Origin: an uncultured Collinsella sp.
Lineage (GTDB): Bacteria > Actinomycetota > Coriobacteriia > Coriobacteriales > Coriobacteriaceae
Reading direction: 5' to 3'
Length of the DNA: 44,504 bases
Assembly: GCA_934630855.1 (NCBI GenBank)
Contig: CAKTWW010000013.1
Span: forward strand, 1 to 44,504
Both the position numbers and the translations under genes were made by a program. Shown here in pieces: positions 28,004-42,800 of this stretch; the stretch's first letter is position 1, and every line of letters begins with the position of its first letter. The notes below the pieces were generated by a model that saw only the letters and a list, made by a program, of their open reading frames with translations, made no database searches and was not told the DNA's origin.

Positions 28004-28843
28004 ATGGGAGCCGTCCACGTTCGCACGCCCAAGAACTTCGTGCTCGAGGAGCGCCTGGAGCGCTACGCCGACGCCATCGAGACGAGCCCCGAGAACTATG
28101 CCGGACACTGGTGTGAGGCATGCACGCCGGCTGGCGGCAAGCCCTTCGGCCGCCTTCATCTCGATCTGGGCTGTGGCAAAGGAACCTACCTAGTCGAGCG
28201 CGCCCACCGCGAGCCCGACACGCTCTTTATCGGTATGGACCAGGAACCCATCTGCATTGCCTATGCCGCGCAGAAAATCTGCGAGCAGGAGCTGCCCAAC
28301 GCACTTGTCCTGCCCCGAGGTGCCGCATCGCTGCCGCGGCTGTTTGCCGCAGGCGAGCTCGATGCCATCACCATCAACTTTCCCACGCCGCAGCCCAAGG
28401 CTAAGTACGCCAAAAAGCGACTCGTGCATGTTGACCATCTGATGCTCTACCGTCCGCTCTTTGCCGCCGGTGCCACCGTCACGCTGCGCACCGATAGCAA
28501 GCCGCTGCGCGACTACGCCTTGGGGCAGTTTGCCGCGGCTGGCTACGACACGCTTTGGGTAAGCGATGACGTTCGCCGTGACCATCCCGAGCATCCCGAG
28601 ACCGAGTACGAATGCCGCACGCGCGAGATGGGCGCCGTCGTCTATGGCATCTGTGTCACATCCGGCGAGGAGCCTACCGAAGAGCAGCTCGCGGCAGGCC
28701 GGGCGCAGGAGCAGAGCCTCGCCTGCTACCTGCCCGACGATCTCGATGAGCTCACCTACGTGCCCCTCGGCATGGAAGAGGCCGTCGAGAACTTTAAGAA
28801 CCGCGCCCGCAAGGGCAAGAAGCGTTTACCGCAGGAGTCCTAG
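28004..28843 (+). CDS. trmB: TrmB-like tRNA (guanine-N7) methyltransferase
   Basis: A 279-aa enzyme with TrmB features: LHLDLGCGKGTYLVERA (SAM loop), FIGMDQEP, and TLRTDSKPLRDYAL near the C-terminal side. TrmB adds a methyl group to N7 of G46 in tRNA. The usual PDPWPK segment reads FPTPQPKAKYAKKRLV here: the aspartate held to be catalytic in E. coli TrmB and the tryptophan are absent. A C-terminal extension of about 45 residues is charged. AAGGAG lies a few bases before the ATG. The gene follows the Trm9-like gene after 116 bp. Confidence 0.8.
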   Translation: MGAVHVRTPKNFVLEERLERYADAIETSPENYAGHWCEACTPAGGKPFGRLHLDLGCGKGTYLVERAHREPDTLFIGMDQEPICIAYAAQKICEQELPNALVLPRGAASLPRLFAAGELDAITINFPTPQPKAKYAKKRLVHVDHLMLYRPLFAAGATVTLRTDSKPLRDYALGQFAAAGYDTLWVSDDVRRDHPEHPETEYECRTREMGAVVYGICVTSGEEPTEEQLAAGRAQEQSLACYLPDDLDELTYVPLGMEEAVENFKNRARKGKKRLPQES

Positions 28844-29152
28844 AGGCCTCTGATGGTCGCGGCGTCGGCAAACAAGCGCAAATAGCTGCCAGCGAACGAC
28901 CCTCAAATCTAAGTGAGTAGACTTTTTGCAATAGCCAAGCACAACCCACATAGCGAAAAATAAAACCGCAGGTAGAGCCCTTGCGCAAAAGCCGTGTGCT
29001 CGCGATATTGCAAAAAGTCTACTCACTTAGCTGTCAACTGCACCAAAGGACTGGGTAGAACGCCCATTTCCTGCATTTTCTCGCGCGCTGGCGCCCCGCG
29101 CCGCCGCTACGCCATAATGGATGGCGGACAAACGCGAGAGAAAGCAAACCAC
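28844..29152. other. Intergenic region of 309 bp containing palindromic repeat copy A
   Basis: Apart from the repeat at 28909-29030 it carries only short flanks. The start of the helicase gene is placed at 29153, with GAGAG about 12 bases upstream. No promoter is clear, and no terminator for trmB is seen other than the repeat itself. Confidence 0.5.
28909..29030. repeat. Palindromic repeat family, copy A (best-paired copy)
   Basis: Terminal inverted repeats of 25 bp (28909-28933 and 29006-29030) match perfectly; their outer 20 bases are CTAAGTGAGTAGACTTTTTG. An inner stem pairs AGCACA (28938-28943) with TGTGCT (28995-29000). The core CCGCAGGTA is at 28966-28974. Homologous copies lie at 39685-39807 and 41105-41227, in the same orientation by the core. 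No open frame runs through this copy. Confidence 0.95.
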
Positions 29153-31807
29153 ATGGCACAGACCACGACAGATTCTTCCGCCAGCTCGTTCTCGGGCGGC
29201 ACAGGCACCGAGGCCGAGTTCGGCTCGCTCGGCGTGCTCTCCCCCACCTGGTGGGAGCCCGAGGACGGCAGCGAGCCCGAGCCATGGCTCACGCCCGACC
29301 AGGCCTTCGAGCGCTTCTTTGAATGGACGAGTGACCGCGGCATTTCGCTGTGGGACCACCAAGAAGAAGCCCTCATGGACCTAGCCGCCGGCGATCATGT
29401 CATTTTGGGCACGCCAACCGGCTCGGGTAAATCGCTTGTCGCGCTGGGCATGCTCTTTATGGGCATGGCGCAAGGCAAGCGCTGCTATTACACCGCCCCC
29501 ATCAAGGCCCTGGTCAGCGAGAAGTTTTTTGACCTGGTGCAGGTACTCGGCCGCGATAACGTCGGCATGATCACCGGTGATACGCATATCAACACCAAGG
29601 CGCCCGTCATCTGCTGCACGGCCGAGATCCTTGCCAACGACGCGCTGCGCGAGGGCGAAGACGCCGACGTGGGTTGCGTCGCCATGGACGAGTTCCACTA
29701 CTTCGCCGACCCCGACCGCGGCTGGGCTTGGCAGGTGCCGCTGCTCACCCTGCCCCATACACAATTCATGCTTATGAGCGCCACGCTCGGCGATGTCACC
29801 GCTATCGCCGTCTCACTCGAGGAGCACACCGGCGCCACCTGCGACCTGGTCGTCGACGCCCCGCGTCCTGTGCCGCTGAGCTACGACTACGTAACGACCT
29901 CGCTCGAGGGCACCGTCGAGCTCGCGATGCGTCGCGGCGAGGCCCCGCTCTACATCGTGCACTTTAGCCAGGATGCCGCGCTTGCAACGGCACAGTCACT
30001 CGCCAACTTCGGCATTGCCAGCAAGGAACAGCGCGAGGCCATCAAGGAAGCCGCCAAGGGCACGAGTTTCTCGACCGCCTTCGGCAAGATTCTCAAGCGC
30101 CTGCTCGGCTGCGGCGTCGGCGTGCACCACGCCGGCATGCTGCCGCGCTATCGCTTGCTGGTCGAACGTTTGGCGCAGCAGGGCTTGTTGCCCGTCATCT
30201 GCGGCACCGACACGCTCGGTGTCGGCATCAACGTGCCCATCCACACCGTGGTGCTCACCGCGCTCACCAAGTTCGACGGATACAAGATGCGTCGCTTGCG
30301 CGCCCGCGAGTTCCATCAGATCGCCGGCCGCGCCGGCCGCTCGGGCTTTGACACCGAGGGCATGGTCATCGCCGAAGCCCCGGAGCACGAGATTGAGAAC
30401 GCCAAGCTCATGGCCAAGGCGGGCGACGACCCCAAAAAGCTCCGCAAGATTAAAAAGAAGAAGGCCCCGGAGGGCTTTGTCACCTGGAACAAGCAGACCT
30501 TTGAGCGCCTGATTGAGACGCAACCCGAGACGCTCAAACCGCGCCTGCGCATCACGCACTCCATGGTGATCAGCGTGGTCGAACAGGGTGGCGACGCTCG
30601 CGCCCGCGTGCATGACCTCATCGAGACAAGTCTGCAAACGCCTGAGGAAAAGGCGAAGCTCGAGGTTCGCGCCGATGAGATTTTTGCCACGCTCATCGAC
30701 TCCGGCGTCGTCGTGCGCACCGAGGTGCCGCCCGCGCCCGACGCTCCGGCTGACGCCGCGCCTGACATCGACTACGCGCTGACGGTCGACCTGCCCGAGG
30801 ACTTTGCACTCGACCAGCCGCTCTCGCCGTTTTTGCTCGCCGCGCTGGAGCTGCTCGACCCCGAGAGCGAGACCTACACCATGGACCTCATCTCGATGGT
30901 TGAGGCTACACTCGAGGACCCCAAGCAGGTGCTGCGCGCACAGGAGCGTGCTGCGCGCGACCGTGCCATGGCTGAGATGAAGGCTGACGGCATCGAGTAC
31001 GAGGAGCGCCTGGAGCGCATCCAGGATGTGACCTATGAAAAACCGCTTGAGGACTTGCTCGATGCCGCCTTTGATAAGTACTGCCAGGAAGTACCCTGGG
31101 CCAACGACTACCAGCTCTCGCCCAAGAGCGTCCTGCGCGACATGTTGGAGAGCGCGAGCGACTTTAAGGGCTATATCCAAAAACTCGGCATCGCCCGCTC
31201 CGAGGGCATTCTGCTGCGCTACCTGGCCGAGGCCTACCGTTCCCTCGATCGCACCGTGCCCATCGAGAAGCGCGATGAGCGCTTGCGCGACATCATTTCG
31301 TGGCTCGGCTTTGTAGTGCGCTCGGTCGACTCGAGCCTGGTGGACGAGTGGGAGAACGCCGGCAACCCGGCCGCACTCGACGCCGCGCCGCCTCAGGGTA
31401 TCGACGAGGTTGTGGCAGACCGCCGCGGCTGCACCCTGCTGGTGCGCAATGCGCTCTTCCGCCGCGTGACCCTTGCAGCCCGCGAGCACGTCCGCGATCT
31501 GGGCGAGCTCGACGAGGACTGGGGCATGAGCGAGGTCCGCTGGCAAAAGGCGCTCGACGCCTATCACGAGCAGCACGAGGAAATCCTCACCAACGGCGAC
31601 GCTCGCAGCGCCGCGATGTTTACCATCGACGAGAGCGATGAGAAGACCGATCACGTATGGCACGTGCATCAGATCTTTGCCGATGAGAATGGCGACCACG
31701 ACTTTGGCATCATGGGCGATGTCGATCTGGACGCCACGCAAGACGGCGGCGAGGTCATCTTCATCCACTACCGCGTCGGCTTTATCGAGGACCTGCTCGA
31801 AGACTAG
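29153..31807 (+). CDS. Ski2-like/DUF3516 DEAD-box helicase
   Basis: A superfamily 2 helicase of 884 aa. Motif I is GTPTGSGKS (86-94), motif II MDEFHYF, motif III MSATLGD, motif VI HQIAGRAGRSGFD. VHHAGMLPRYR and GTDTLGVGINVP are the Ski2/Brr2-like signatures. The C-terminal ~450 residues match DUF3516, common in actinobacterial helicases of this type. It probably unwinds RNA, perhaps in decay or ribosome work; the substrate is not known. The ATG at 29153 is chosen over an in-frame ATG at 29117 because of spacing to GAGAG. A strong terminator follows. Confidence 0.87.
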   Translation: MAQTTTDSSASSFSGGTGTEAEFGSLGVLSPTWWEPEDGSEPEPWLTPDQAFERFFEWTSDRGISLWDHQEEALMDLAAGDHVILGTPTGSGKSLVALGMLFMGMAQGKRCYYTAPIKALVSEKFFDLVQVLGRDNVGMITGDTHINTKAPVICCTAEILANDALREGEDADVGCVAMDEFHYFADPDRGWAWQVPLLTLPHTQFMLMSATLGDVTAIAVSLEEHTGATCDLVVDAPRPVPLSYDYVTTSLEGTVELAMRRGEAPLYIVHFSQDAALATAQSLANFGIASKEQREAIKEAAKGTSFSTAFGKILKRLLGCGVGVHHAGMLPRYRLLVERLAQQGLLPVICGTDTLGVGINVPIHTVVLTALTKFDGYKMRRLRAREFHQIAGRAGRSGFDTEGMVIAEAPEHEIENAKLMAKAGDDPKKLRKIKKKKAPEGFVTWNKQTFERLIETQPETLKPRLRITHSMVISVVEQGGDARARVHDLIETSLQTPEEKAKLEVRADEIFATLIDSGVVVRTEVPPAPDAPADAAPDIDYALTVDLPEDFALDQPLSPFLLAALELLDPESETYTMDLISMVEATLEDPKQVLRAQERAARDRAMAEMKADGIEYEERLERIQDVTYEKPLEDLLDAAFDKYCQEVPWANDYQLSPKSVLRDMLESASDFKGYIQKLGIARSEGILLRYLAEAYRSLDRTVPIEKRDERLRDIISWLGFVVRSVDSSLVDEWENAGNPAALDAAPPQGIDEVVADRRGCTLLVRNALFRRVTLAAREHVRDLGELDEDWGMSEVRWQKALDAYHEQHEEILTNGDARSAAMFTIDESDEKTDHVWHVHQIFADENGDHDFGIMGDVDLDATQDGGEVIFIHYRVGFIEDLLED

Positions 31808-31829
31808 CCCAGCGTGGCGGAACGAAACG

Positions 31830-31870
31830 AAGCGGGGCCGCTGGCAACATCGCCAGCGGCCCCGCTTTTT
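31830..31870 (+). terminator. Intrinsic terminator after the DUF3516 helicase
   Basis: GCGGGGCCGCTGGC (31832-31845) pairs perfectly with 31852-31865 over a 6-base loop; two flanking A-T pairs lengthen the stem to 16 bp. The T-run is 31866-31870. It lies between convergent genes and probably insulates both. Confidence 0.95.
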
Positions 31871-31887
31871 GCGCCGTGTGCTATGCG

Positions 31888-33645
31888 CTACTCGGTTTCC
31901 TCGACCTCATACGCATCGGCCTCGGCGGGTTCATCGCCCGTGCCCGCTGCCGTCTCGCGCGCCTCGTCAAACGCCGCCTTCATGGTCTTGTTGCCCCAGG
32001 TGAGCTTGCGGATTGTAAGCTCATCAGCCTTGTTGTGGGCCAGACGCAGATTCTCGGTACTGCGACGTAGGTCGTCCTTGGTCTTCTCGAGCTGTTTAAT
32101 AGCAGCATCGATCTCCTTGATCGCCGACTCGAACTGCTTGCTCGCCAAGTTGTAGTTGCGCGAGAAACCATCCTTGAACTTTTCCATCTTGGCTTCGAAG
32201 TTCGTGACGTCGATATTCTGCTGTTTGTACTCCGCCAGCTCCTGCTTATAGCGCAGCGAACCCATGGCGGCGTTGCGCAGCAGCGTGATCATCGGGATGA
32301 AGAATTGCGGGCGGATCACATACATCTTCTCGTAGCGATAGCTCACGTCCACGATGCCGGCGTTATAGAGCTCGCTCTCGGGCTCGAGCAGGGTGCAGAG
32401 CACCGCATACTCGCAGCCTTTCTGGCGGCGATCGTGGTCGAGTTTCTTAAAGAAGTCCTCGTTCTTGTGCTTGGTCGCGGTTTCGTCATTCTCGTTTTTC
32501 ATCTCGAACATAATCGAGATGATCTCGTTGCCGCTCGCGTCGCACTCACGGAAGATGAAGTCACCCTTGGTGCCCTCGGATGCATCGTTGTCTTTCTCAA
32601 AATACGCGTTGGGAAACGCCATCATGCGCAAGCGATTGAACTCAGTCTCGCAGTGCTGCTCGAGCGACTCGCCCACCATCTTGGTGGACAGGCGAACCTT
32701 CATATCCTTCAGACGCTCAATCTCTTCGTCCTTGTAGCGGACCAGCTCGTCGCTCGCACGTTTGGCCTGTGCAAGCTCGAGCTCGTGGGCAGCCTTGGCC
32801 TGCTCCTCGCGAGAATCGCGCACCGCGAGTTCGCTCGTGAGCTTCGCGCGTGCTTCATCGCGCTCGCGCTCCGCCGCAGCGACCGCCTCCGACAGGTTCA
32901 TTTTTGCCGTCAGCTCCTGTTCGCGCAGCTGGGCGCGCAGACCTTCTGCCTCCTGCGCAGACTGAGCCTTTGCGGCGGAGAACTTCTCCTGCACCTTCGC
33001 CTGATAGTCGGCAAGCGTGCGCTCGGCTTCGCTGCGAGCCGCAGCGAGCTCGCGCTGCGACTCGGCGGCCGCAGCGGCGAGCGCCATCTCCTGGGCCTTG
33101 TCTGCCGCGGAGAGCTTCGCCTGCAGCTCGGCAATCTGGGCGTCGCGGGCGGACAGATCGTTTTGAACGGCATTGCGCACCGCTGCCTCGGCGAGCTTGG
33201 CCTCGTCATCCTTGCGACCCAACTGCGCACGTAAGCTATCAATCTCGCGCTGGAGCTCCGCATTCTCCTTTTGAGCATCGGCACGGGCCTCAACAGCCGC
33301 ACGCTGGCTTGCGCTCTCGCGCTCTGCGGCAGCGCCCTCGAGCTTGGCACGCAGCTCGGCAAGCTCGGCGTCGCGCTTGGCAACTTCCTGCGCCAACTCC
33401 TGAGCCGCGGCGTTTTTCTGCTCAGCGAGCTGAGCGTCGCGCTGAGACTCCGCCTCCTGCAAGGCGGCAGTCGAGCGCGAGCGCTCAAGCTCCAACGCCT
33501 GCTCACCCTCGCGCTGGACGGCCTTCACGCGCTCATCCAGGTCGCGCGAGAACTCCGCATCGCGCACCTGTTTGACGATATCCGCATAGCCGGACGCATC
33601 GACCTTAAAGACTTCGCCGCAATGCGGGCACTTGATCTCGTTCAT
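31888..33645 (-). CDS. DUF2130 coiled-coil protein with putative nuclease core
   Basis: A 585-aa protein. The N-terminus (MNEIKCPHCGEVFKVD) has a CxxC that may bind zinc. Residues about 25-290 are a long coiled coil rich in Ala, Glu, Gln and Arg. The C-terminal third has GDFIFREC and ISIMFEMKNENDE, an D...E-x-K arrangement compatible with a PD-(D/E)XK nuclease core, as proposed for DUF2130. No phenotype is established. It is convergent with the helicase and has a 115-bp upstream gap that holds a separate hairpin. Confidence 0.85.
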   Translation of the reverse strand: MNEIKCPHCGEVFKVDASGYADIVKQVRDAEFSRDLDERVKAVQREGEQALELERSRSTAALQEAESQRDAQLAEQKNAAAQELAQEVAKRDAELAELRAKLEGAAAERESASQRAAVEARADAQKENAELQREIDSLRAQLGRKDDEAKLAEAAVRNAVQNDLSARDAQIAELQAKLSAADKAQEMALAAAAAESQRELAAARSEAERTLADYQAKVQEKFSAAKAQSAQEAEGLRAQLREQELTAKMNLSEAVAAAERERDEARAKLTSELAVRDSREEQAKAAHELELAQAKRASDELVRYKDEEIERLKDMKVRLSTKMVGESLEQHCETEFNRLRMMAFPNAYFEKDNDASEGTKGDFIFRECDASGNEIISIMFEMKNENDETATKHKNEDFFKKLDHDRRQKGCEYAVLCTLLEPESELYNAGIVDVSYRYEKMYVIRPQFFIPMITLLRNAAMGSLRYKQELAEYKQQNIDVTNFEAKMEKFKDGFSRNYNLASKQFESAIKEIDAAIKQLEKTKDDLRRSTENLRLAHNKADELTIRKLTWGNKTMKAAFDEARETAAGTGDEPAEADAYEVEETE

Positions 33646-33717
33646 AGCAGCTCCTCGATGGACGCAAATTTCAACCGCCTACACTCTACCGCGCCATGCG
33701 GACAAAAATGACGCCAG

Positions 33718-33754
33718 AACCACCACAAAGGTGTCTGTCCCCATCGTGGTGGTT
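33718..33754 (-). repeat. Intergenic hairpin with GGGGACAGACACC loop
   Basis: AACCACCAC (33718-33726) and GTGGTGGTT (33746-33754) form a perfect 9-bp stem. Read on the minus strand, the 19-base loop begins GATGGGGACAGACACC. No T-run follows on either strand, so it is not a standard terminator. It lies between the metallophosphoesterase and DUF2130 genes, and its layout resembles the hairpin at 19656-19692. Confidence 0.65.
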
Positions 33755-33760
33755 TGAGGG

Positions 33761-34306
33761 CTACAGCCCAAAGAAGCTCAAGATTTGGTCTCGGCTTACG
33801 GGCTTGTAGTTGTTGGCGTCGAGGCCGACATCGTAGCGGCAAATGGGGCGCTCGCGATCACGGTTGCGCGTGTTGGTGCGGTCTCCCTTGCTGTGGATAT
33901 GCCCGTGCAGCATAATGGCACCGCGCGCCTTGCCGTTCCAGCTGAGCATGGGGTAGTGGCTCAAAACCAGGCGATGCCCTTTAGCGTAGCCGGGGGCAAT
34001 CTCCAGGTAATCGCGTACGTCATCCCAAATTTGCGGTGCGTCCGGATCTTCCCAATCGCCGTCATGGTTGCCCTGTATGAGCGTGACGTTTTGGCAGGCA
34101 ATGCGCTCGCGCAGGCGCACGGCCTCCGCCATGGGCAAGCGATACGTAAAGTCTCCCAGAATATAGAGGCGGTCGTCCGCAGCAACGCACTCGTTAATGG
34201 CGTCAATAACCTTGCGGTTCATCTCCTCGACCGAGGCGAACGGCCGATCCATATCGTGCAGGATATTCGTATCGCCCAAGTGCAGGTCGGCGGTAAACCA
34301 CATCAT
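33761..34306 (-). CDS. Calcineurin-like metallophosphoesterase
   Basis: A protein of about 181 aa with all the metal-binding motifs: DLHLGD, LGDFTY, GNHDG, LSHYPM and LHGHIHSKGD. Members cleave phosphomonoesters or diesters; the small size suits the YfcE-like/MJ0936 group, but the substrate is unknown. The ATG at 34306 has GAGGA eight bases upstream; an in-frame ATG five codons earlier would place that site inside the gene. It is the last gene of a minus-strand run with the 59-aa and HIRAN genes. Confidence 0.85.
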   Translation of the reverse strand: MMWFTADLHLGDTNILHDMDRPFASVEEMNRKVIDAINECVAADDRLYILGDFTYRLPMAEAVRLRERIACQNVTLIQGNHDGDWEDPDAPQIWDDVRDYLEIAPGYAKGHRLVLSHYPMLSWNGKARGAIMLHGHIHSKGDRTNTRNRDRERPICRYDVGLDANNYKPVSRDQILSFFGL

Positions 34307-34372
34307 CGTCTGTGTCCTCATTTCGCAACGCGTCTAACACGTGCCTAGTATACAGACGCTTTGGCGCCGCGG

Positions 34373-34552
34373 TTACCCAAAGAGCCCGCCAAACAATCCA
34401 CGGCGGCGCTTATCATTCTTTTTCGATGCGTCGCCTTGCGCGTTCTTATCCTTCCGCTTTTTGCGATCCTGCTCCAGCTCATCGTCATCAAGCAGCAAGT
34501 CCCACTCAAACGGATCGTCCGTCAGATCGAACAGGTCGTCGTCATCAAACAT
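34373..34552 (-). CDS. Small charged protein, 59 aa
   Basis: This short frame starts MFDDDDLFDLTDDPFEWD and ends KRRRGLFGGLFG. It has an acidic first half, a lysine/arginine-rich second half and a hydrophobic glycine-phenylalanine tail. AGGGGAG lies seven bases upstream of the ATG, and it starts 18 bases after the HIRAN gene stop in the same direction, so I regard it as a real co-transcribed gene. I know no family. The polar halves could bind a partner or nucleic acid. Confidence 0.55.
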   Translation of the reverse strand: MFDDDDLFDLTDDPFEWDLLLDDDELEQDRKKRKDKNAQGDASKKNDKRRRGLFGGLFG

Positions 34553-34570
34553 GGCAGTCTCCCCTAGCGG

Positions 34571-34897
34571 CTAGCGGGCATCCGCCACATAAAGGCCAAC
34601 GCGCACCTGATGCCAGGGGCTGCGCTCGGGCGCAACCTGCTGCACGCGGGCCTCAAACACATCTTCGTGCCCGTAATACATCATCACGGACAGAGGGCCG
34701 ACCTCGTTTCCCGGAACATAGCCGAGCTTAGTCTTACCGTAATAGATCGCGACCGCCTCAGGATCATGGGGGTTATCGCGCTCGGCACACAGCGTCAGCC
34801 TATCGCCCGCTTTTAGATCGCCCAGGACTAATGCGCCATCGGCATACTGAAATCCCGCGATATGAAATGACAGAAGAACGCGTGAAGGCTCGTACAT
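34571..34897 (-). CDS. Stand-alone HIRAN-domain protein
   Basis: A 108-aa protein that is almost entirely one HIRAN domain: FHIAGFQYADGALVL, AGDRLTLCAERDNPHDPEAVAIYYG and KLGYVPGNEVGPLSVMM. HIRAN modules bind DNA ends or damaged DNA, either alone or in helicases such as HLTF. Here it stands alone, followed by the 59-aa gene and the phosphoesterase. Its cellular role is unknown; an involvement in DNA repair is inference. Confidence 0.87.
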   Translation of the reverse strand: MYEPSRVLLSFHIAGFQYADGALVLGDLKAGDRLTLCAERDNPHDPEAVAIYYGKTKLGYVPGNEVGPLSVMMYYGHEDVFEARVQQVAPERSPWHQVRVGLYVADAR

Positions 34898-34999
34898 AAC
34901 AGCTCCTCTAACGGCCGGAATAACCGGCGCTTAACCTTATAGAGAAGTCTACGAACTCGTGCGGACACAAATTCACCCACCTCGTGTCTTTTCGACCGC

Positions 35000-35028
35000 T
35001 TGCCGCAACGCTTGCAGATACGATAAGG
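35000..35028 (+). promoter_or_regulatory. Possible promoter of a small RNA
   Basis: TTGCCG (35000-35005) and GATAAG (35022-35027) are 16 bases apart, a fair -35/-10 pair. They lie just upstream of the structured stretch that ends in a T-run terminator, with no plus-strand gene nearby. Confidence 0.4.
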
Positions 35029-35033
35029 GCACG

Positions 35034-35127
35034 TATGGCACCCGTTGCAGCGGGTCTTGCCAACTCCGATACACGTTTACATCGTGAGAAGCGGCCGTCT
35101 TCGCTTACGCGGGGGCGGCCGCTTTTT
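35034..35127 (+). ncRNA. Candidate structured small RNA of about 94 nt
   Basis: The stretch has three possible hairpins: TGGCACCCG with CGGG...TGCCA (35036-35062, 3-base bulge), CACG with CGTG (35073-35087), and a terminator, AAGCGGCCG (35089-35097) with CGGCCGCTT (35116-35124) and T-run to 35127. It lies between two minus-strand genes, so the plus-strand T-run has no coding gene to serve. The alternative is that it is only a weak terminator for the aldehyde dehydrogenase operon read the other way. No known RNA family is recognised. Confidence 0.45.
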
Positions 35128-35146
35128 CGTTATCTTCTATCTCGTT

Positions 35147-36526
35147 CTAGTGCACAAACATGCGCACGAATTTGCGCTTCCAGCTTGCGTAGGGGGCGTA
35201 GCGGAACGGTACATCCAGCCATGTTGCCTTGTTCACGATGCTCTTCTTGTGGCTAAACGTATCGAAACTCTCGCGGCCATGGTATTGCCCCATGCCGCTC
35301 GCGCCCATGCCGCCAAAGCCCATATGACTTGTGGCCAGATGCATGATGGTGTCATTGACGCAACCGCCGCCAAAGGGCACGTAGCGCACAAAGCGCTGCT
35401 GCACCGCGCGATCCCGACTAAAGATATACAGGGCCAGCGGCGTTGGACGATCCGTGATAAACGTCTCGGCCTCGTCCAGGCTCTCAAACGTCAGCACCGG
35501 CAAGATGGGACCGAAAATCTCCTCCTGCATCACGGCATCCTCGGGCGTCACGCCGTCCAGGATCGTCGGCTCAATCTTGAGCGACGCCTCGCGCGCCGCA
35601 CCTCCTAGCACAACTTTATCGGGGTCAATCAACCCGCGCACGCGCGCGAAATGCTTGGCGTTGACGATATGGCCGTAGTCCTCGTTGTCGAGCGGGTGCT
35701 CGCCAAACATGTGGCGGACCTCCTCCTTGATGAGTTCCAGCAGCTCATCGTGCACGCGCGCATCGACCAGCAGATAGTCGGGCGCTACACAGGTCTGGCC
35801 CACGTTGAGCCACTTACCAAAGGCGATGCGGCGTGCTGCCACCTTCAAGTTTGCGGAGGCATCCACGATGCAGGGGCTCTTGCCGCCCAGCTCAAGTGTC
35901 ACGGGCGTGAGGTTTTTGCTCGCGCGCTCCATGACGAGCTTGCCGACCGGAACGCTGCCGGTAAAGAAAATCTTATCCCAGCACTCATCGAGCAGTGCCT
36001 CGTTCTCGGCACGACCGCCCTCGACGACCGTCACCAGACGCGGATCAAACGCTTCCTCGCAAATCTGCCTGAGCACGGCGCTCGACGCCGGCGCATATGC
36101 ACTCGGCTTGATAACCACGGTGTTGCCCGCGGCAAGGGCACCGGCAAGCGGTTCGAGCGTCAGCAAAAACGGATAGTTCCAGGGTGCCATGATCAGCGTT
36201 ACGCCATAGGGCACGACCTGCGTCTTGCACACGCTAATAGCATTGGCGAGGTCGCACGGGCGCAGGTGCGCACGACTCCACTGGGCCACATGCGCAATCT
36301 GGTGGCGAATCTCGGAAAGCGATGTGCCGATCTCGCACATGTACGCCTCGTCATGCGACTTACCCAAATCGGTCTTGAGCGCATGGGCGATATCGTCCTC
36401 GTGTGCCCGAACCGCATCGCGCAGGCACATGAGCGCGCGACGGCGAGCATCGACATCAAACGTGGCATGCGTCTTAAAATAGACGCGCTGGCTGCTAACG
36501 ATGCGCGCGATTTCCTCGGTGTTCAT
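35147..36526 (-). CDS. NAD(P)-dependent aldehyde dehydrogenase (class 3 type)
   Basis: A 459-aa enzyme with the short length of the class 3 group. The substrate cysteine is in NVGQTCVAPDYLL and the general base glutamate in LELGGKSPCIV; APWNYPFLLTLEPL and FFTGSVPVGKLV are cofactor-binding blocks. It oxidises aldehydes to acids, or reduces the reverse under suitable conditions. It begins eight bases after the alcohol dehydrogenase stop, so together they form a two-step alcohol/aldehyde/acid pathway. Its physiological substrate is unknown. Confidence 0.92.
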   Translation of the reverse strand: MNTEEIARIVSSQRVYFKTHATFDVDARRRALMCLRDAVRAHEDDIAHALKTDLGKSHDEAYMCEIGTSLSEIRHQIAHVAQWSRAHLRPCDLANAISVCKTQVVPYGVTLIMAPWNYPFLLTLEPLAGALAAGNTVVIKPSAYAPASSAVLRQICEEAFDPRLVTVVEGGRAENEALLDECWDKIFFTGSVPVGKLVMERASKNLTPVTLELGGKSPCIVDASANLKVAARRIAFGKWLNVGQTCVAPDYLLVDARVHDELLELIKEEVRHMFGEHPLDNEDYGHIVNAKHFARVRGLIDPDKVVLGGAAREASLKIEPTILDGVTPEDAVMQEEIFGPILPVLTFESLDEAETFITDRPTPLALYIFSRDRAVQQRFVRYVPFGGGCVNDTIMHLATSHMGFGGMGASGMGQYHGRESFDTFSHKKSIVNKATWLDVPFRYAPYASWKRKFVRMFVH

Positions 36527-36534
36527 GGGCCCTC

Positions 36535-37755
36535 CTAGTTCTCGTCCTCAAACATACCACCCGCGACGACCTCGTACATATGCTCGAGCTCCAAACGGTC
36601 CATCAAAAGCGGGACAGGATACAGCGGATTGGCCTCGGCATCGGCATGGGCGGCCATTTGCGGAATATCGGAGCGGCGAATACCCGAGACGTATTTAGGA
36701 ATTCCCAAGGCATCGTTCATGCGATCGACCCAATCGATAAAGGCCTCGGCAGCCAAGCCGTCCTGCGCGTTAGCCGGCGCAATGCCCGCCATGCGAGCAA
36801 GATCGGCAAGCTTGGGAGCGGCAGCTTCGCCATAAGCGCGAAGCATGTGCGGCAGGATAATGGCGTTGGCCAAACCGTGCGGAATGCCATATCGGCCACC
36901 CAGACTGTGCGCGATGGCATGCACATATCCAACATAGGAGCGCGTAAATGCGACGCCCGCCTTATACGCCGCCGAAAGCATATTGCGACGCGCACGCATG
37001 TTGTCGCCATGCTCATAGGCCTCGAGCAAATTGTCGTGGATGAGCTGAACCGCTTGGCGCGCCATCTTGCGCGTGTAGGGCGTGGTGCTACGGCCGATAA
37101 AAGCCTCGACGGCATGCGTCAGAGCATCCATACCCGTCTGCCCCGTAATGGACGCCGGCAGCCCACGCGTAAACTCGGGGTCGTGAACCGCAAAGCGCGG
37201 AATGAGCACAAAGTCGTTAATAGGGTACTTATAGTGCGTCTCGTCATCGGTGATAACCGCCGCGAGCGTGACTTCGCTTCCCGTACCGGCGGTAGTGGGA
37301 ACCGCGATAAGCAGCGGCAGAAGACGGTGAACGCGCAACAGGCCGCGCATCTTGTTGATGGGCTTGTTTGGCTGCGCAATGCGCGCGCCCACGCCCTTGG
37401 CGCAGTCCATGGCCGAACCGCCACCAAAGCCGATAATGGCCCGGCAGTCGTTCTCGCGATACAGCGCCGCCGCTTGCTCCACATTCGAGACCGTGGGGTT
37501 CGCACGCGTTTCGGCATAGACCGTAACGCCAATCCCCTTTGACGCGAGCGCGCGCTCGAGCGGCGCCGTAAGCCCCAGACGGGCAATACCGGGGTCTGTC
37601 ACGATGAGCACACGCTGAATCGAACGCTTTTGAAGCACCGCGGGCACATCCTCGGCATGCTCCAAAATACGCGGCTCGGTATAGGGCAGGATCGGCAATG
37701 CGATGCGAAAAACCGTCTGATATGTTCGGCACCAGGCACGACGGGCTAGATGCAT
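36535..37755 (-). CDS. Iron-containing alcohol dehydrogenase
   Basis: About 406 aa of the group III metal-dependent alcohol dehydrogenase family. The glycine-rich cofactor site is IIGFGGGSAMDCAKGVG, with VPTTAGTGSEVT, and metal ligands lie in TGMDALTHAVEAFIG and GYVHAIAHSLGGRYGIPHGLANAI. The ATG at 37755 has AAGGAG about nine bases upstream; an in-frame extension of 27 codons runs into the promoter region. The upstream gap contains TGTTGA-TGGG-TCAACA, a possible operator. It converts a primary alcohol to an aldehyde for the neighbouring dehydrogenase or the reverse. Confidence 0.92.
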   Translation of the reverse strand: MHLARRAWCRTYQTVFRIALPILPYTEPRILEHAEDVPAVLQKRSIQRVLIVTDPGIARLGLTAPLERALASKGIGVTVYAETRANPTVSNVEQAAALYRENDCRAIIGFGGGSAMDCAKGVGARIAQPNKPINKMRGLLRVHRLLPLLIAVPTTAGTGSEVTLAAVITDDETHYKYPINDFVLIPRFAVHDPEFTRGLPASITGQTGMDALTHAVEAFIGRSTTPYTRKMARQAVQLIHDNLLEAYEHGDNMRARRNMLSAAYKAGVAFTRSYVGYVHAIAHSLGGRYGIPHGLANAIILPHMLRAYGEAAAPKLADLARMAGIAPANAQDGLAAEAFIDWVDRMNDALGIPKYVSGIRRSDIPQMAAHADAEANPLYPVPLLMDRLELEHMYEVVAGGMFEDEN

Positions 37756-37943
37756 AAAGGAAACTCCTTCATTTGTTGATGGGTCAACATTTGCTCGACC
37801 GATTGTACTCATCGAAGGCCATATGAGCCCCGTCAACCGTTAATCAATCAACATCTACATATTGTTTGGAGCTGTTTGGCGTCATCCGGTGTTAGTCTTT
37901 CAGAATCCATTGGATTCACGTCCGCCGCAAAGGAGGCGCAAAG

Positions 37944-38837
37944 GTGCACGACATCTGGAACCCCTGGCATGGCTGCACGCGCGTCAGCGAGGGATGCGAC
38001 AACTGCTACATGTATTACATGGACGGACAACGCGGTATCGACCCCTCCGTGATTAGCAAAAGCAAGTCGGGCTTTACTTATCCCCTCCAACGCCGCCGGG
38101 ACGGCAGCTACAAAGTTCGCGCCGGCGAGCTTATCCGCATCTGCATGACAAGCGATTTCCTATTGCCCGAGGCCGATCCCTGGCGACCAGAGGTATGGGA
38201 TATCATCCGCCAGAGACCCGACGTAAAGTTCTTCATTCTGACCAAACGTCCCGAGCGCTTTAACGAGTGTCTTCCCGGCGACTGGGGCGATGGCTGGCAA
38301 AACGTCATGCTCAACGTAACCTGCGAGAACCAGCGCAGGGCAAATGAGCGGATTCCCCTTCTGCTCGCCACGCCGGCAGCACACCGCGGCATCATGTGTG
38401 CGCCGTTTATCGGAAGCGTGTCGGTCGAGAAAGTCGCCCCCGGTAGCCTTGGAAAGCCAGATGGGATTGAGCAGGTTATCGCGGGCGGAGAAAACTACGC
38501 GGGAGCACGCCCCTGCCATTACGAATGGGTGCGCCAGCTGCATGCCGAATGCGTGGCGGCAGATGCGACGTTTGCTTTCATCGAAACCGGAAGCACCTTC
38601 GTTAAGGACGGGCGAACATATCACCTTCGTGGCAAAAATCTGCAAAGCGAGCAGGCATGGAAATCAGGCCTCCAGTACCGCGGCCGCCAAATCGAATGGG
38701 ACCTAAGGGACCCGCTCGGCCTGGAAATCCCCAGCTCGGAGCTTTGGGATCCACCGTATTTTGAATGGTGCGAAACCTGCGGAAGCAAGTTCATCTGCAA
38801 CGGCTGCGTCCGCTGCGGACTATGTGGACGCTGCTAG
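37944..38837 (+). CDS. DUF5131 (phage Gp37/Gp68-like) cysteine protein
   Basis: A 297-aa protein from GTG with AAGGAGG seven bases upstream. WNPWHGCTRVSEGCDNCYM is the family signature; C11, C18 and C21 form a C-x6-C-x2-C cluster suggesting an iron-sulfur centre, as in radical-SAM-like proteins. The C-terminus has a second cysteine-rich zone (CETCGSKFICNGCVRCGLCGRC, first residues near 274) likely to bind zinc or another cluster. The family is found in phages and bacteria; its reaction is not known to me. Confidence 0.8.
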   Translation: MHDIWNPWHGCTRVSEGCDNCYMYYMDGQRGIDPSVISKSKSGFTYPLQRRRDGSYKVRAGELIRICMTSDFLLPEADPWRPEVWDIIRQRPDVKFFILTKRPERFNECLPGDWGDGWQNVMLNVTCENQRRANERIPLLLATPAAHRGIMCAPFIGSVSVEKVAPGSLGKPDGIEQVIAGGENYAGARPCHYEWVRQLHAECVAADATFAFIETGSTFVKDGRTYHLRGKNLQSEQAWKSGLQYRGRQIEWDLRDPLGLEIPSSELWDPPYFEWCETCGSKFICNGCVRCGLCGRC

Positions 38838-38882
38838 ATGACAGGGTCAAAATTGTTTTATTAAAAATCATTCCTAATAGGC

Positions 38883-38910
38883 TTCACATTCAGTCTCATT
38901 TATGGATAAT
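38883..38910 (+). promoter_or_regulatory. Promoter of the reverse rubrerythrin gene
   Basis: TTCACA (38883-38888) and GATAAT (38905-38910) are 16 bases apart, in an AT-rich stretch unlike its surroundings. An upstream TTTTATTAAAAATCATTCC segment could be a PerR/Fur-type site, as expected for an oxidative-stress gene, but its dyad is poor. Confidence 0.5.
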
Positions 38911-38994
38911 AGAACTCGTCAAGACGCGCGTCCGGAGAGGGCCCTTACGGGACCGGACAAGCGCCCCATCGCCATCGATCGAAAGGATCGAATC

Positions 38995-39555
38995 ATGAAG
39001 TTTGTTTGCCCCGTTTGCGGTTATGTGGAAGAGTTCGACGGCGACCAGCTGCCCGAGGACTTCAAGTGCCCCCAGTGCGGCGTCCCCGGTTCTCGTTTCC
39101 TGAAGCAGGAGGAGGGCCAGCTCGAGTGGGCTGCCGAGCACGTCGTGGGCGTCGCCAAGATGGAGGGCGTCTCCGAGGATATCGTTGCCGACCTGCGCGC
39201 CAACTTTGAGGGCGAGTGCTCCGAGGTCGGTATGTACCTGGCCATGGCTCGCGTTGCTCATCGCGAGGGCTATCCCGAGATCGGCCTGTACTGGGAGAAG
39301 GCTGCCTACGAGGAGGCCGAGCATGCCGCCAAGTTCGCTGAGCTGCTGGGCGAGGTCGTGACCGACTCCACCAAGAAGAACCTCGAGATGCGTGTTGAGG
39401 CCGAGAACGGCGCCACCGCCGGTAAGACCGATCTTGCCAAGCGCGCCAAGGCCGCTGGCCTCGATGCCATCCACGACACCGTGCACGAGATGGCTCGCGA
39501 CGAGGCTCGCCACGGCAAGGCTTTCGCCGGCCTGCTCAAGCGCTACTTTGGCTAA
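38995..39555 (+). CDS. Reverse rubrerythrin (NADH peroxidase-type)
   Basis: A 186-aa protein. The N-terminus is a rubredoxin-like iron site (C5, C8, C25, C28) and the rest is a ferritin-like diiron domain with [21 protein letters not shown] and DEARHGKAF. The rubredoxin part comes first, so it is the reverse type known from Clostridium, reducing hydrogen peroxide and oxygen in anaerobes. The start has AAAGGA nine bases upstream. Codons favour GCT, GTT and CTG, suggesting high expression. A terminator follows. Confidence 0.92.
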
Positions 39556-39589
39556 GATAGCTGCCTGAGACATAACCTCTAGCTCAATG

Positions 39590-39619
39590 AGGCCCGGACC
39601 ACACGGTTTGGGCCTTTTT
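39590..39619 (+). terminator. Intrinsic terminator of the reverse rubrerythrin gene
   Basis: AGGCCC (39590-39595) pairs with GGGCCT (39610-39615), with ACC/GGT inside, followed by T residues to 39619. It lies 35 bases after the stop codon. Confidence 0.85.
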
Positions 39620-39684
39620 GTGTCTCGAGGACTCGTTAACGCCCTGAAATAGGACCGTCTTAGGCATCGGCATCTCGTCAAAAA

Positions 39685-39807
39685 CTAAGTGAGTAGACTT
39701 TTTGGAACTTGCCGAGCACACCATCCATATTGCTTTATAAAGCCGCAGGTAAATGACTTGTTGCAAAACGGTCTGGTCGCCAAAGTGCCAAAAGTCTACT
39801 CACTTAG
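39685..39807. repeat. Palindromic repeat family, copy B
   Basis: Left end CTAAGTGAGTAGACTTTTTG is mirrored at the right end with one missing T and one mismatch near the inner edge of the arm. The inner stem pairs CGAGCACACC (39713-39722) with GGTCTGGTCG (39770-39779), 8 of 10. The core CCGCAGGTA is 39743-39751. Its right end supplies the last three codons and stop of the neighbouring minus-strand gene. Confidence 0.93.
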
Positions 39808-40923
39808 AACCGCAGCCGTCCACGATCGAGCTGTCTTGCGTCTAACGGGCATCTTTCCGTCAATTACTCCCAATTTTGTCCAGTCAACGAATAGTTCAGA
39901 CCGAAGTAATGTCTCAGCCCTTTGCTCATCTGAGCTTTTATCACGATATTCAACATCGAGCATCCTGCATACGGCCTTAACAATCGCGCAGAATCTACCC
40001 TCATCGGATATCTGTCTGTGTGTCAGGAGAAGTACATCGTAGCCCATGGTCTGAAGGGCTGTCATGCGGTCAGCGTCACGCAGGCCATCCCCTGCGCGTC
40101 CGTGCGAGGCCTTCCCCTGACATTCAATGGCCACCTGTCGCCTGCCGTCCGGCGAAGAAAGAAGTAGGTCGATATATACACGGGACTTTCCCACAATCGC
40201 TCGAGCACTTGTGCTTAGCGTCACTTCGACATTGAGCTCTATGCAGCAGAACCCTTCGCCTCCCAGGGCTCGCGGCAGTCCAAGCAACAAATACGCCTCG
40301 ACCTCAAAAGGCGACGCGGCACCCAATGGAACGAGTTGCGATACCGCCATAAATCTATTGCCGTAACGCATCCCGCAAACATCTGAACAAAAATGGTCAA
40401 GGTCTCTACCCAAAACCAAAGCGTCTCGACGCCATAAATTTGAGGCAGCGCCGTCCTCGGACGGGCAGCGCACCCAACCGAACGTTGTCGAAATCGCGCC
40501 CGAATCAATTGCGCGCGCAAGCTCCGCCTCAAGCGCCGCCGGCAGAGCGCACACCGCAAACAAGCCACACATCTCCGCCAATACCAAAAGAAGCTGAAGA
40601 TCCGTCAGATGCCGCAACATGATGAATGCCGTCAGTAGAGGAGACGTAATCAAAAATCCATGCTCCGTTTCCAGCACGGATTCCCTGGGGAGCTCACCGA
40701 GGAACAGCCGCTGCCTAATGCTGGCAGGACAAGTCCGCTTGTTTCTCGTCCGAACCAATGTATACAACGGAAAGCCGAGCGCAACCGCAGCCGTCGGGTT
40801 ACGGGCGAGATCATATCGCTGCCGGTCTTCTTCCGGCCGTGGAAGCGGCGGACACAAAGCGCGGACCTGAGGGGGCAAACGCCAGTACCTAAAAGCCGAT
40901 ATGTCACAAAGTAGATCCTTCAT
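39796..40923 (-). CDS. Putative endonuclease-domain protein
   Basis: A protein of about 375 aa. The C-terminal region has SRVYIDLLLSS and RRQVAIECQGKASH, an acidic D...E-x-Q pattern like Vsr/DUF559-type PD-(D/E)XK endonucleases. The N-terminal 150 residues hold aromatic and arginine-rich segments with no recognised fold. ATG at 40923 or GTG at 40929 are possible starts; neither has a strong ribosome site. The last residues (LSE and the stop) come from repeat copy B. Copies of such proteins are common in Collinsella as I recall. Its function is unknown. Confidence 0.6.
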   Translation of the reverse strand: MKDLLCDISAFRYWRLPPQVRALCPPLPRPEEDRQRYDLARNPTAAVALGFPLYTLVRTRNKRTCPASIRQRLFLGELPRESVLETEHGFLITSPLLTAFIMLRHLTDLQLLLVLAEMCGLFAVCALPAALEAELARAIDSGAISTTFGWVRCPSEDGAASNLWRRDALVLGRDLDHFCSDVCGMRYGNRFMAVSQLVPLGAASPFEVEAYLLLGLPRALGGEGFCCIELNVEVTLSTSARAIVGKSRVYIDLLLSSPDGRRQVAIECQGKASHGRAGDGLRDADRMTALQTMGYDVLLLTHRQISDEGRFCAIVKAVCRMLDVEYRDKSSDEQRAETLLRSELFVDWTKLGVIDGKMPVRRKTARSWTAAVLSE

Positions 40924-41215
40924 AAGCACAGGAAAACACGAATTTCAACCCAATCGGTCTTGCATTGGCGCGAACGCACCAAAAATGGCGTCGAACGGAC
41001 TGCTAAGTTTTCAACAGCCCTCCCCAACTGACCAAAAGCTTGCCGAGAACTGGACGAAGCCCTGTTGAAAACCCCATTTATTTCTCATGCGGAAGCTTTG
41101 CACGGCAAGTGAGTAGACTATTTGGAACACCCCGAGCAGACCGGTCATCCTACTTTTCAAAACCGCAGGTAGATAGCTTGTTACAAAACTGCCTGGTCGC
41201 CAAAGTTCCAAAAGC
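40924..41215. other. Intergenic region of about 290 bp with two palindromic elements
   Basis: It contains an 11-bp inverted repeat (41007-41072) and most of repeat copy C (from 41105). I see no good promoter for the endonuclease-domain gene. No coding potential is seen. Confidence 0.5.
41007..41072. repeat. 11-bp inverted repeat
   Basis: GTTTTCAACAG (41007-41017) is the exact reverse complement of CTGTTGAAAAC (41062-41072), enclosing 44 bases. It differs from the 122-bp family but lies only 33 bases from copy C. Confidence 0.75.
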
Positions 41216-41227
41216 CTACTCACTTAG
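41105..41227. repeat. Palindromic repeat family, copy C
   Basis: The left end reads GCAAGTGAGTAGACTATTTG, so the outermost bases and one inner base differ from copies A and B; the right end is intact apart from GCC for GTC. GGAAC near 41124 pairs with GTTCC near 41205. The inner stem is CGAGCAGACC (41133-41142) with TGCCTGGTCG (41190-41199). The core CCGCAGGTA is 41163-41171. The right end provides the stop codon of pdxR. Confidence 0.92.
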
Positions 41228-42655
41228 GTTGCAGAGTGTCCCCATTAGCTGCAATTCCAAGGTTGTTAGCACTTTTGGACTCAGATCGTCATACTGAACA
41301 AGAATTTGAGTTGAGTTTTCAGAAACAGATGCGCCGTCGGCACACCAATAACAGTCACTGATATCGATGAACGGGATGCTTAAGCGCGTAAGGGTCCGCA
41401 TAAAAGAGCTTCCGCCCGTATCACGCTCCACAGCCACGACGCAGTAAAGGCCCGCATCTGCATGCTCGATCGAGACCTCCCCTGCTGGAAACGCTTTCCG
41501 TACAAGCGACGCTAGGCCATCGCGTGTCTCGCGAGCACGAACGCGCACGCGGTTCACATGCCGCTCGTAATCACCCGATTCCAGCAAGCGCGCTAAAGCG
41601 ACCTGGTCAACAGAACTCACCGACGAGGCGTAAAAACCAAGGTTGCGCCTAAACCGTTCCATCAGCTCATCAGGCAGGACCATATACGCCAAACGCAGGG
41701 CCGACGACAGACTTTTTGAAAAGGTGTTGGTGTAGATGACCGATTGGGCGGCATCGATCGACGCGAGCGCGGGAATCGGCTTGCCGGCAAGGCGAAACTC
41801 ACAATCAAAGTCATCTTCAATGAGATACCGGTCCGGCTGCTCGGTAGCCCAGCTCAGCAGGGCATAGCGACGCGCAATGCTCGTCACAAGGCCGGTCGGA
41901 TACTGATGGGACGGCATCAGGTGAAGGACATCGGTCCCGGTTTTCTGCAGAGCGCTCAAGTCCACGCCCTCACCGTCCAACGGGATATGTCGAACTTTGC
42001 AGCCCATAGCCTGATAGATGCGCGTCAGGCGCAAATAGCCCGGGTCCTCAACGGCATACACCTTGTCCGCGCCAAGCAGCTGAACCAACATGGTATCGAG
42101 CAACTGGGCGCCCGCACCGATAACGATGTTGTCGGGGTCGACATTCATGCCCCTTATCCCGCGAAGATGATGCGCAATTGCACGCCGGAGACGCGCGGTG
42201 CCTTGCGCAGGTGCGGGCGAGAAGATTTCGCGTTCGTCTTCGGTCGTTAGCGTCACCCGCAGAGCACTTTGCCACAGGCGCGCGGCTTCCAAGGCAGATG
42301 GAGAGAGCGGAGCGAATTGCTCGGGCTGTCCACCAGCATCATGTGCGTTAAAGCCCGCAGGAGCAGAATCTCGATCGAGCTCTGTCTCGGCCGAAGCTAG
42401 AACCGGGGCTTCGGGAAGCTCGCACGCGTAGTAGCCACGACGCGGCTTTGAGCAAATATAACCCTCGGCGAGCAACTGGCTATATGCATTTTCGATCGTA
42501 ATGACACTGATTCCCAGATGACTGGCAAAGGCACGCTTGGACGGCAGGTGCTCCCCCGCCGCAATGCGACCAGCAACGATATCATCTCGAATTTGCTGGT
42601 AAACATACTCATAGAGCGATGCTCCGCCACGTTGTTCCAAATTGTAGTCAAGCAT
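41216..42655 (-). CDS. pdxR: MocR/GntR-type PLP-dependent regulator of pdxST
   Basis: A 479-aa protein. Residues about 8-75 are a winged-helix GntR domain (YQQIRDDIVAGRIAAGEHLPSKR). The remainder is an aminotransferase-like fold with LIEDDFDCEFR (Asp holding PLP nitrogen) and TNTFSKSLSSALRLAY (PLP lysine). Such PdxR regulators sense PLP and control pdxST, which is divergent here. The ATG at 42655 has AGGTGG upstream; a TTG 11 codons earlier is an alternative. The last codons, LSE and stop, lie in repeat copy C, so the natural C-terminus may have been replaced. Confidence 0.92.
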   Translation of the reverse strand: MLDYNLEQRGGASLYEYVYQQIRDDIVAGRIAAGEHLPSKRAFASHLGISVITIENAYSQLLAEGYICSKPRRGYYACELPEAPVLASAETELDRDSAPAGFNAHDAGGQPEQFAPLSPSALEAARLWQSALRVTLTTEDEREIFSPAPAQGTARLRRAIAHHLRGIRGMNVDPDNIVIGAGAQLLDTMLVQLLGADKVYAVEDPGYLRLTRIYQAMGCKVRHIPLDGEGVDLSALQKTGTDVLHLMPSHQYPTGLVTSIARRYALLSWATEQPDRYLIEDDFDCEFRLAGKPIPALASIDAAQSVIYTNTFSKSLSSALRLAYMVLPDELMERFRRNLGFYASSVSSVDQVALARLLESGDYERHVNRVRVRARETRDGLASLVRKAFPAGEVSIEHADAGLYCVVAVERDTGGSSFMRTLTRLSIPFIDISDCYWCADGASVSENSTQILVQYDDLSPKVLTTLELQLMGTLCNLSE

Positions 42656-42800
42656 GAGTTCGCCACCTGGCCTTATCGCATCATTCAATCTGGTATTAGT
42701 CTGACCTTGTTATTATCTCGAAAACTGAGTATTCCGCCATACCCAGCTCCCCTATAGGATGTTCCGTCAAGCAATAAACATGCCAACCAAGGGAGCAACC
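42656..42800. promoter_or_regulatory. Divergent pdxR-pdxST control region
   Basis: A possible pdxS promoter is TTGTTA (42707-42712), 17 bases, then TATTCC (42730-42735). GGTATTAGTCTGACC (42692-42706) is an imperfect dyad that could be part of the PdxR operator, since MocR sites lie between such divergent genes. Boxes are weak. Confidence 0.4.

Follow-up and report, generated by a model that had tools for sequence, protein, structure and literature searches.

Three palindromic repeats on a Collinsella contig belong to a large and apparently undescribed family of DNA elements of about 122 bases

The window analysed here, i.e. positions 1 to 44,504 of contig CAKTWW010000013.1 from an uncultured Collinsella sp. 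(GCA_934630855.1; order Coriobacteriales), contains three palindromic repeats on its plus strand: copy A (28909..29030, 122 bp), copy B (39685..39807, 123 bp) and copy C (41105..41227, 123 bp). They are members of a large family of palindromic DNA elements, each about 122 bases long, that seems not to have been described before. A covariance model search of the window with E-values up to 1 identified these three copies only (A: 110.4 bits, B: 131.1 bits, C: 108.6 bits), and the arm sequence AGTGAGTAGACTTTTTG matches the window six times with up to three mismatches (0.02 expected), all six matches being the arms of A, B and C. The left arm of A (28909..28933) is complementary throughout to its right arm (29006..29030). 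The central motif, termed here the core, lies at 28963..28973 in A (AAACCGCAGGT), and at 39743..39751 in B and 41163..41171 in C (CCGCAGGTA in both); CCGCAGGTA has the plus orientation in all three copies, and its fourth match in the window (12347) is outside any element. This bears out a sequence-only reading of the contig, which had placed three copies at 28909, 39685 and 41105 with equally oriented cores, and had pointed to GCAATA/TATTGC in A and GGAAC/GTTCC in C as an arm difference; B carries GGAAC/GTGCC, with one mismatch. When folded as DNA, each copy exceeds all 200 shuffled sequences (plus-strand z-scores -8.2 for A, -5.4 for B and -3.9 for C). No open reading frame (ORF) is confined to any element in a list of ORFs of at least 100 aa, while ~122 bp can hold at most 40 codons.

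Copy A is flanked by a Methyltransf_4 (trmB-like) gene (28004-28843, plus strand) and by the gene for a DUF3516 helicase. Two minus-strand ORFs have their 3' ends at B and C, respectively, with their stop codons contained in the right arms of the elements: ORF 39796-40929, which shows a weak match to the MTES_1575 restriction endonuclease family, under the cut-off, and ORF 41216-42688, which encodes a GntR/aminotransferase (MocR-like) protein. The right arms of B (39796-39807) and C (41216-41227) both read CTA AGT GAG TAG on the minus strand, hence both ORFs terminate in Leu-Ser-Glu-stop. The sequence CTAAGTGAGTAG presents a stop codon in all three frames to translation entering from either side.

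The scan of genome contigs for both 10-bp ends separated by a free gap returned 97 stretches, 83 of them from Collinsella according to the record titles. These 83 contain 99 two-armed matches, and the core was accepted in 98. We removed the 14 non-Collinsella stretches, which are repeats without the core, as well as one row of L021 and a Collinsella match in L014 (5533), the core of which was too divergent for the filter. Carriage by phages was also considered and rejected: four scans of viral contigs gave 0, 1, 1 and 0 stretches, and both matches lack the core. Together with the three copies from the window, the collection comprises 101 copies, which group by their flanks into seven clusters (two paralogous loci being joined in one of them); the subfamily of the window is therefore an old one, inherited mostly in situ. 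The outer 9-mers are exactly 117 bp apart in 97 of the 101 copies.

Our covariance model R1, built from 40 sequences, matched 31 of 43 genomes of the genus (E ≤ 1e-6). Its weaker matches revealed elements with an identical type of interior and length, and with wholly different outer arms (e.g. GGAAGTATGCGGCAAATT, GGAAGTGCGGGGAAAAAT, TTTAGGGGACGGTTTTG, CGAAGTGAGTGCTTC, GCAAATGCGCGGATAA or CCTCGTGTGCAGG), each with a near or full complement at the opposite end. A second model, R2, built from 38 sequences with differing outer arms, gave matches in 89 of the 247 Coriobacteriales genomes sampled (E ≤ 1e-5); since 14 candidates were scored per genome in this search, the copy counts derived from it are floors. 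In six Collinsella genomes, after removal of doubles from the two strands, we counted 6 (G015), 9 (G016), 12 (G026) and 29 (G038) distinct places at E ≤ 1e-5, and 39 (G022) and 54 (G042) at E ≤ 1e-3. The common anatomy comprises subfamily-specific inverted outer arms of ~16–25 bp, an inner inverted repeat GAG(C/T)A.../...T(G/A)CTC, and the central AAACCGCAGGT. Terminal inverted repeats, short length and absence of ORFs are features of a miniature inverted-repeat transposable element (MITE), and the earlier impression of miniature elements without an internal transposase frame was right in that the elements are small, gene-free and interspersed, with paired arms. By eye, TA at both termini, which marks the ERIC/RUP/Correia group, is found in many AAGTGAG and TTTA copies, and not in the GGAAATGC copies of G022 or the GGAAGTATG copies. 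Tandem elements of different arm subfamilies, separated by a spacer of 13–14 bp, occur in five genomes (L132, L133, L138, L141 and L146; these loci are only partly alike). An apparent orientation bias relative to the replication strands of G022, with boundaries placed by eye, disappeared on a hand count, and twenty GC-skew samples place the switches elsewhere. Among 57 loci analyzed for gene context, 15 are inside ORFs of at least 100 aa (probably spurious) and 7 are at edges; the 35 classifiable ones include 16 between convergent and 5 between divergent genes, and in 30 of them at least one gene 3' end adjoins the element.

The distance between the arms is nearly invariant. An arm pattern searched in six genomes gave 129 matches, in G036, G041 and G042, and no control matches. 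Neighbouring plus and minus arms form 52 pairs, 49 of which are spaced by 105–109 bp (43 by 107 bp), two by 266 bp (these are two adjacent elements) and one by 55.9 kb; close pairs account for 98 of the 129 matches, and the other 31 have no exact partner. The lengths of 149 places in the six genomes fall into three classes, with 139 at 119–125 bp, six at 132–133 bp, four at 141–142 bp and none in between; these are covariance-model matches, in which long inserts are penalised, and they include orthologues. The classes hint at helical phasing, on the basis of few and partly orthologous longer copies. In the 142-bp variants at L288, L289 and L292 the core motif is present twice, ~22 bp apart, and the inner stems are also changed on both sides.

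The sequence-only reading had described the arm differences as compensatory and ascribed them to selection for folding, in DNA or RNA. Compensation is weak within the window's subfamily (covariation term -0.55, two-sided changes at 2 of 19 pairs) but strong across subfamilies, where 13 of the 14 top column pairs by corrected mutual information belong to the outer stem and one to the inner stem, helix 1 (outer) shows 95.9% pairing and has changed on both sides in each of its 16 pairs, and the covariation score is 0.581, compared to 0.187 for shuffled and 0.073–0.140 for slid partners. The model used to collect these members scores 13 outer pairs favourably; this bias alone is insufficient as an explanation, given single-genome E-values down to 1e-14. 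In the TTTA subfamily of G042, the 6-mers of the left and right arms agree in 26 of 32 copies, compared to 10.8 after shuffling (0 of 10000 shuffles reached the observed value), and both arms have changed together by several bases at a time in a single genome (GGGGAC, GAAGAC, CGGTTC). G-T pairs are no more common than A-C mismatches, either across subfamilies (10 vs 9 for the outer and 17 vs 17 for the inner stem) or in the window's subfamily, where they are rarer (12 vs 20 and 19 vs 43, respectively). RNA would favour G-U, so the stems appear to pair as DNA, and selection for folding, if any, looks like it acts on DNA rather than RNA. That the element is a structured non-coding RNA or an mRNA 3' element would agree with its strong hairpin potential and with the gene 3' ends beside most classifiable loci; nevertheless, we regard it as very improbable, since G-T is favoured over A-C in neither stem and the window contains no Rfam family at the gathering score (when six loci were compared with Rfam at E-values up to 1, the one match was to a microRNA and far under its cut-off).

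Template-switch repair of imperfect palindromes could produce the same arm pattern without selection. It is a published mechanism that yields compensatory changes of several bases, according to the available text of PMC8794818, and it is also treated in the part of PMC7202029 available to us. If the repeat were neutral, with its arms kept alike only by such quasi-palindrome correction, the covariation would be uninformative on function, and the concerted changes of several bases seen in one genome would be expected. However, this explanation leaves the fixed spacing, the dispersal and the slower-changing core (see below) unaccounted for, and mismatches persist in place (at the arm pair 10-108, for example, 97 copies show 19 mismatches and 9 G-T pairs), which makes it improbable as a complete account.

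Comparison of relatives reveals loci with and without the element. Among 22 genomes searched for the locus L130, eight lack it (G001, G004, G006, G007, G009, G014, G017 and G026), five match the filled form in full (G013, G016, G032, G033 and G035), three contain the element with one flank (G002, G008 and G010), and the remaining six are ambiguous. The filled form is longer by ~158 bp, i.e. by the element and 35 bp. Locus A is without the element in G002, G033 and G035, where it is shorter by ~200–210 bp, and at locus L029 many relatives have up to ~350 bp less, with short repeated palindromes in the gap. The outcome that the sequence-only reading had named as speaking against it, only three copies without covariation beyond chance, did not materialise: the wider search found many copies as well as relatives with an element-free locus. 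L386 and L387 share the left flank and the element with L380 and have a different right flank (in G008 and G010), which looks like the outcome of a rearrangement through the element.

Resident copies change unevenly along their length. In eight orthologous groups (76 distinct sequences) the mean pairwise difference is 0.036 for the 11 core columns and 0.03 for the inner repeat, compared to 0.09–0.13 for the flanks and 0.10–0.15 for other interior segments. Seven of the core columns are at 0.00–0.02 (CAGGT is nearly fixed), and the A-C-C-G part is at 0.05–0.17. These figures come from a stricter regrouping, which itself favours alike flanks; an earlier grouping, which merged two paralogous loci, had given 0.11–0.22 for the flanks. 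The element ends were excluded from this analysis, because copies had been selected by exact 10-mers at both ends. The core thus varies about a third as much as the flanks, which argues for a function or continued use.

Such constraint would be expected of a DNA site that serves the host, namely a fixed nucleoprotein platform for chromosome organisation, relief of supercoiling at gene ends or insulation of transcription, with a conserved Coriobacteriales protein bound at the core and inner repeat and the arms conferring subfamily specificity. The length classes, which suggest helical steps, and the excess of convergent over divergent gene pairs around the element agree with this explanation, although the classes derive from the insert-penalising matches described above. 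On the other hand, presence or absence differs among relatives, copy number ranges from 6 to 54 across six genomes, no binding protein is known, and the exact core without arms is found at only two independent loci: among its 171 matches in 1.44 Mb, these two loci, one of which is coding, are plainly not part of an element (by eye), the raw count being biased as most of this sequence was chosen for containing elements. We consider a host-serving site unlikely, and slightly more so after the recount, which gives about threefold rather than near-total constraint.

The core of A is also a site of insertion. In G001, G006 and G008 the element is split at a single core base (query 419, equivalent to 28968 in the window) by an IS110-type insert. 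The insert in G008 (L365 2010-3312) is 1303 bp long, with its middle part masked in the sequence data, and on its opposite strand encodes a protein with the DEDD-type motif GVDTHKD, which matches the Pfam family PF01548 (DEDD_Tnp_IS110) over a 48-residue piece with an E-value of 2.8e-5, under the family cut-off. The insert DNA matches 8 of 42 genomes of the genus, the matches in G009 and G015 being distant and partial. Among the junctions surveyed (L410-L439), all 15 distinct left ones end in AAACCG (these are distinct sequences rather than independent loci, and three represent locus A in three genomes), and 11 of 12 right ones start with GCAGG or GCTGG (the remaining one resembles a repeat of the terminal sequence of the insert). 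An element arm is present in 13 of the 15 left flanks, and its complement occurs in one or another of the right flanks, sometimes in that of a different copy; four arm subfamilies are represented. In the 5' non-coding part of the insert, ACCTGC (found by script) and CAAATCCG (found by eye) flank a small predicted hairpin and each agree with one half of the target, as read on that strand, at 6 of 6 and 7 of 8 positions, respectively; the predicted fold is not better than that of shuffled sequences (z -0.59). From these matches we only infer a putative guide loop in this region. Insertion of IS110 elements into REP palindromes is already known (available parts of PMC1525189 and PMC11208160). The sequence-only reading had anticipated neither the constraint on the core nor the exploitation of the core by an IS110-type element.

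The best reading of these data is a new superfamily, ERIC/RUP-like, with an unusual exchange of paired arms, a near-fixed frame and a constrained core. We find it reasonably probable that A, B and C represent one subfamily of a superfamily of non-autonomous, palindromic DNA elements of ~122 bp that spans the order Coriobacteriales, that these copies are old and descend mostly by vertical inheritance, and that the superfamily was spread by a recombinase encoded elsewhere before its core was exploited by IS110. The recombinase would require both ends to be alike and at a set spacing, and the match between the arms may be renewed either by the spreading process or by template-switch correction. 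The core would be a DNA recognition site rather than an RNA motif, and its many copies would offer IS110 a landing pad, probably recognized through a guide RNA. Several observations weigh against this scenario. There is no clear target-site duplication at L130, locus A or L029, where the differences may reflect gain or loss. No mobilising gene was found, and a partial search for a transposase-bearing parent gave none; for the one arm family studied in the drafts G036, G041 and G042, no arm pair frames a gene, unlike in a classic MITE with a parent, and no autonomous insertion sequence sharing the ends was seen. In-place constraint of the core and inner repeat is unexpected for dead mobile copies, and 6 of the 32 TTTA copies in G042 carry unlike arms, at least one of these copies (L342) resembling a chimera of left and right parts. 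A bolder possibility, which we put forward tentatively and hold to be doubtful, is that a dedicated, so far undescribed Coriobacteriales complex for recombination or chromosome organisation acts on the element as its substrate, in which case the arms would be interchangeable matched specificity modules set at distances of helical steps, one shared protein would read the core and inner repeat, and the IS110 guides would have evolved against the core.

No publication dealing with interspersed palindromes in Collinsella or Coriobacteriia was among the matches listed in the open-licence literature. One of the closest analogues, ERIC (RU-1), is described in the available text of PMC2229807 as an enterobacterial intergenic repeat of 127 bp with terminal inverted repeats and an unproven mobiliser, and it resembles our superfamily in all these respects except the host; the many subfamilies with differing matched arms around one core set the Collinsella elements apart, by description only. 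RUP from pneumococcus (107 bp), for which the same text gives IS630-Spn1 as the proposed mobiliser, is likewise short, repeated, ORF-less and bounded by terminal inverted repeats, whereas here no arm pair of insertion-sequence size was seen (one arm family, three genomes). REPs are interspersed palindromes of 20–40 bp with frequent GT pairing in their stems, according to the portions of the literature at hand, and the available part of PMC3733652 describes subfamilies with alternative complementary stem residues. The Collinsella elements share the latter feature, but they are longer and GT is not frequent in them. An origin from a RAYT/REPIN system was considered and rejected, as 22 Y1 loci contain no R1 match (E < 0.5) and no convincing arm, only scattered arm matches with three mismatches; G022, with its 39 element places, has no Y1_Tnp match at E ≤ 1e-5. 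As with IS621 and REP (PMC1525189 and PMC11208160, as far as their available text goes), a DEDD-type insertion sequence enters a palindromic repeat at one base, but the target here comes from another bacterial group and from a separate family of larger elements.

These results add, for common human gut bacteria, a superfamily of interspersed palindromes that extends across an order. Three of its traits, namely the matched exchange of whole arms around a common core, the rigid spacing and a core that diverges more slowly in place, are absent from the available portions of the accounts of the classic cases. The superfamily provides a new, genome-rich test system for the question of who moves ERIC-like elements, as well as a multi-copy natural target for an IS110-type element. 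Several of the Y1/RAYT-type loci (L174-L195) possess short inverted repeats of their own (e.g. GGTTGGGGACGTGTTCC and TTTGGGGTC), which are unlike the 122-bp element.

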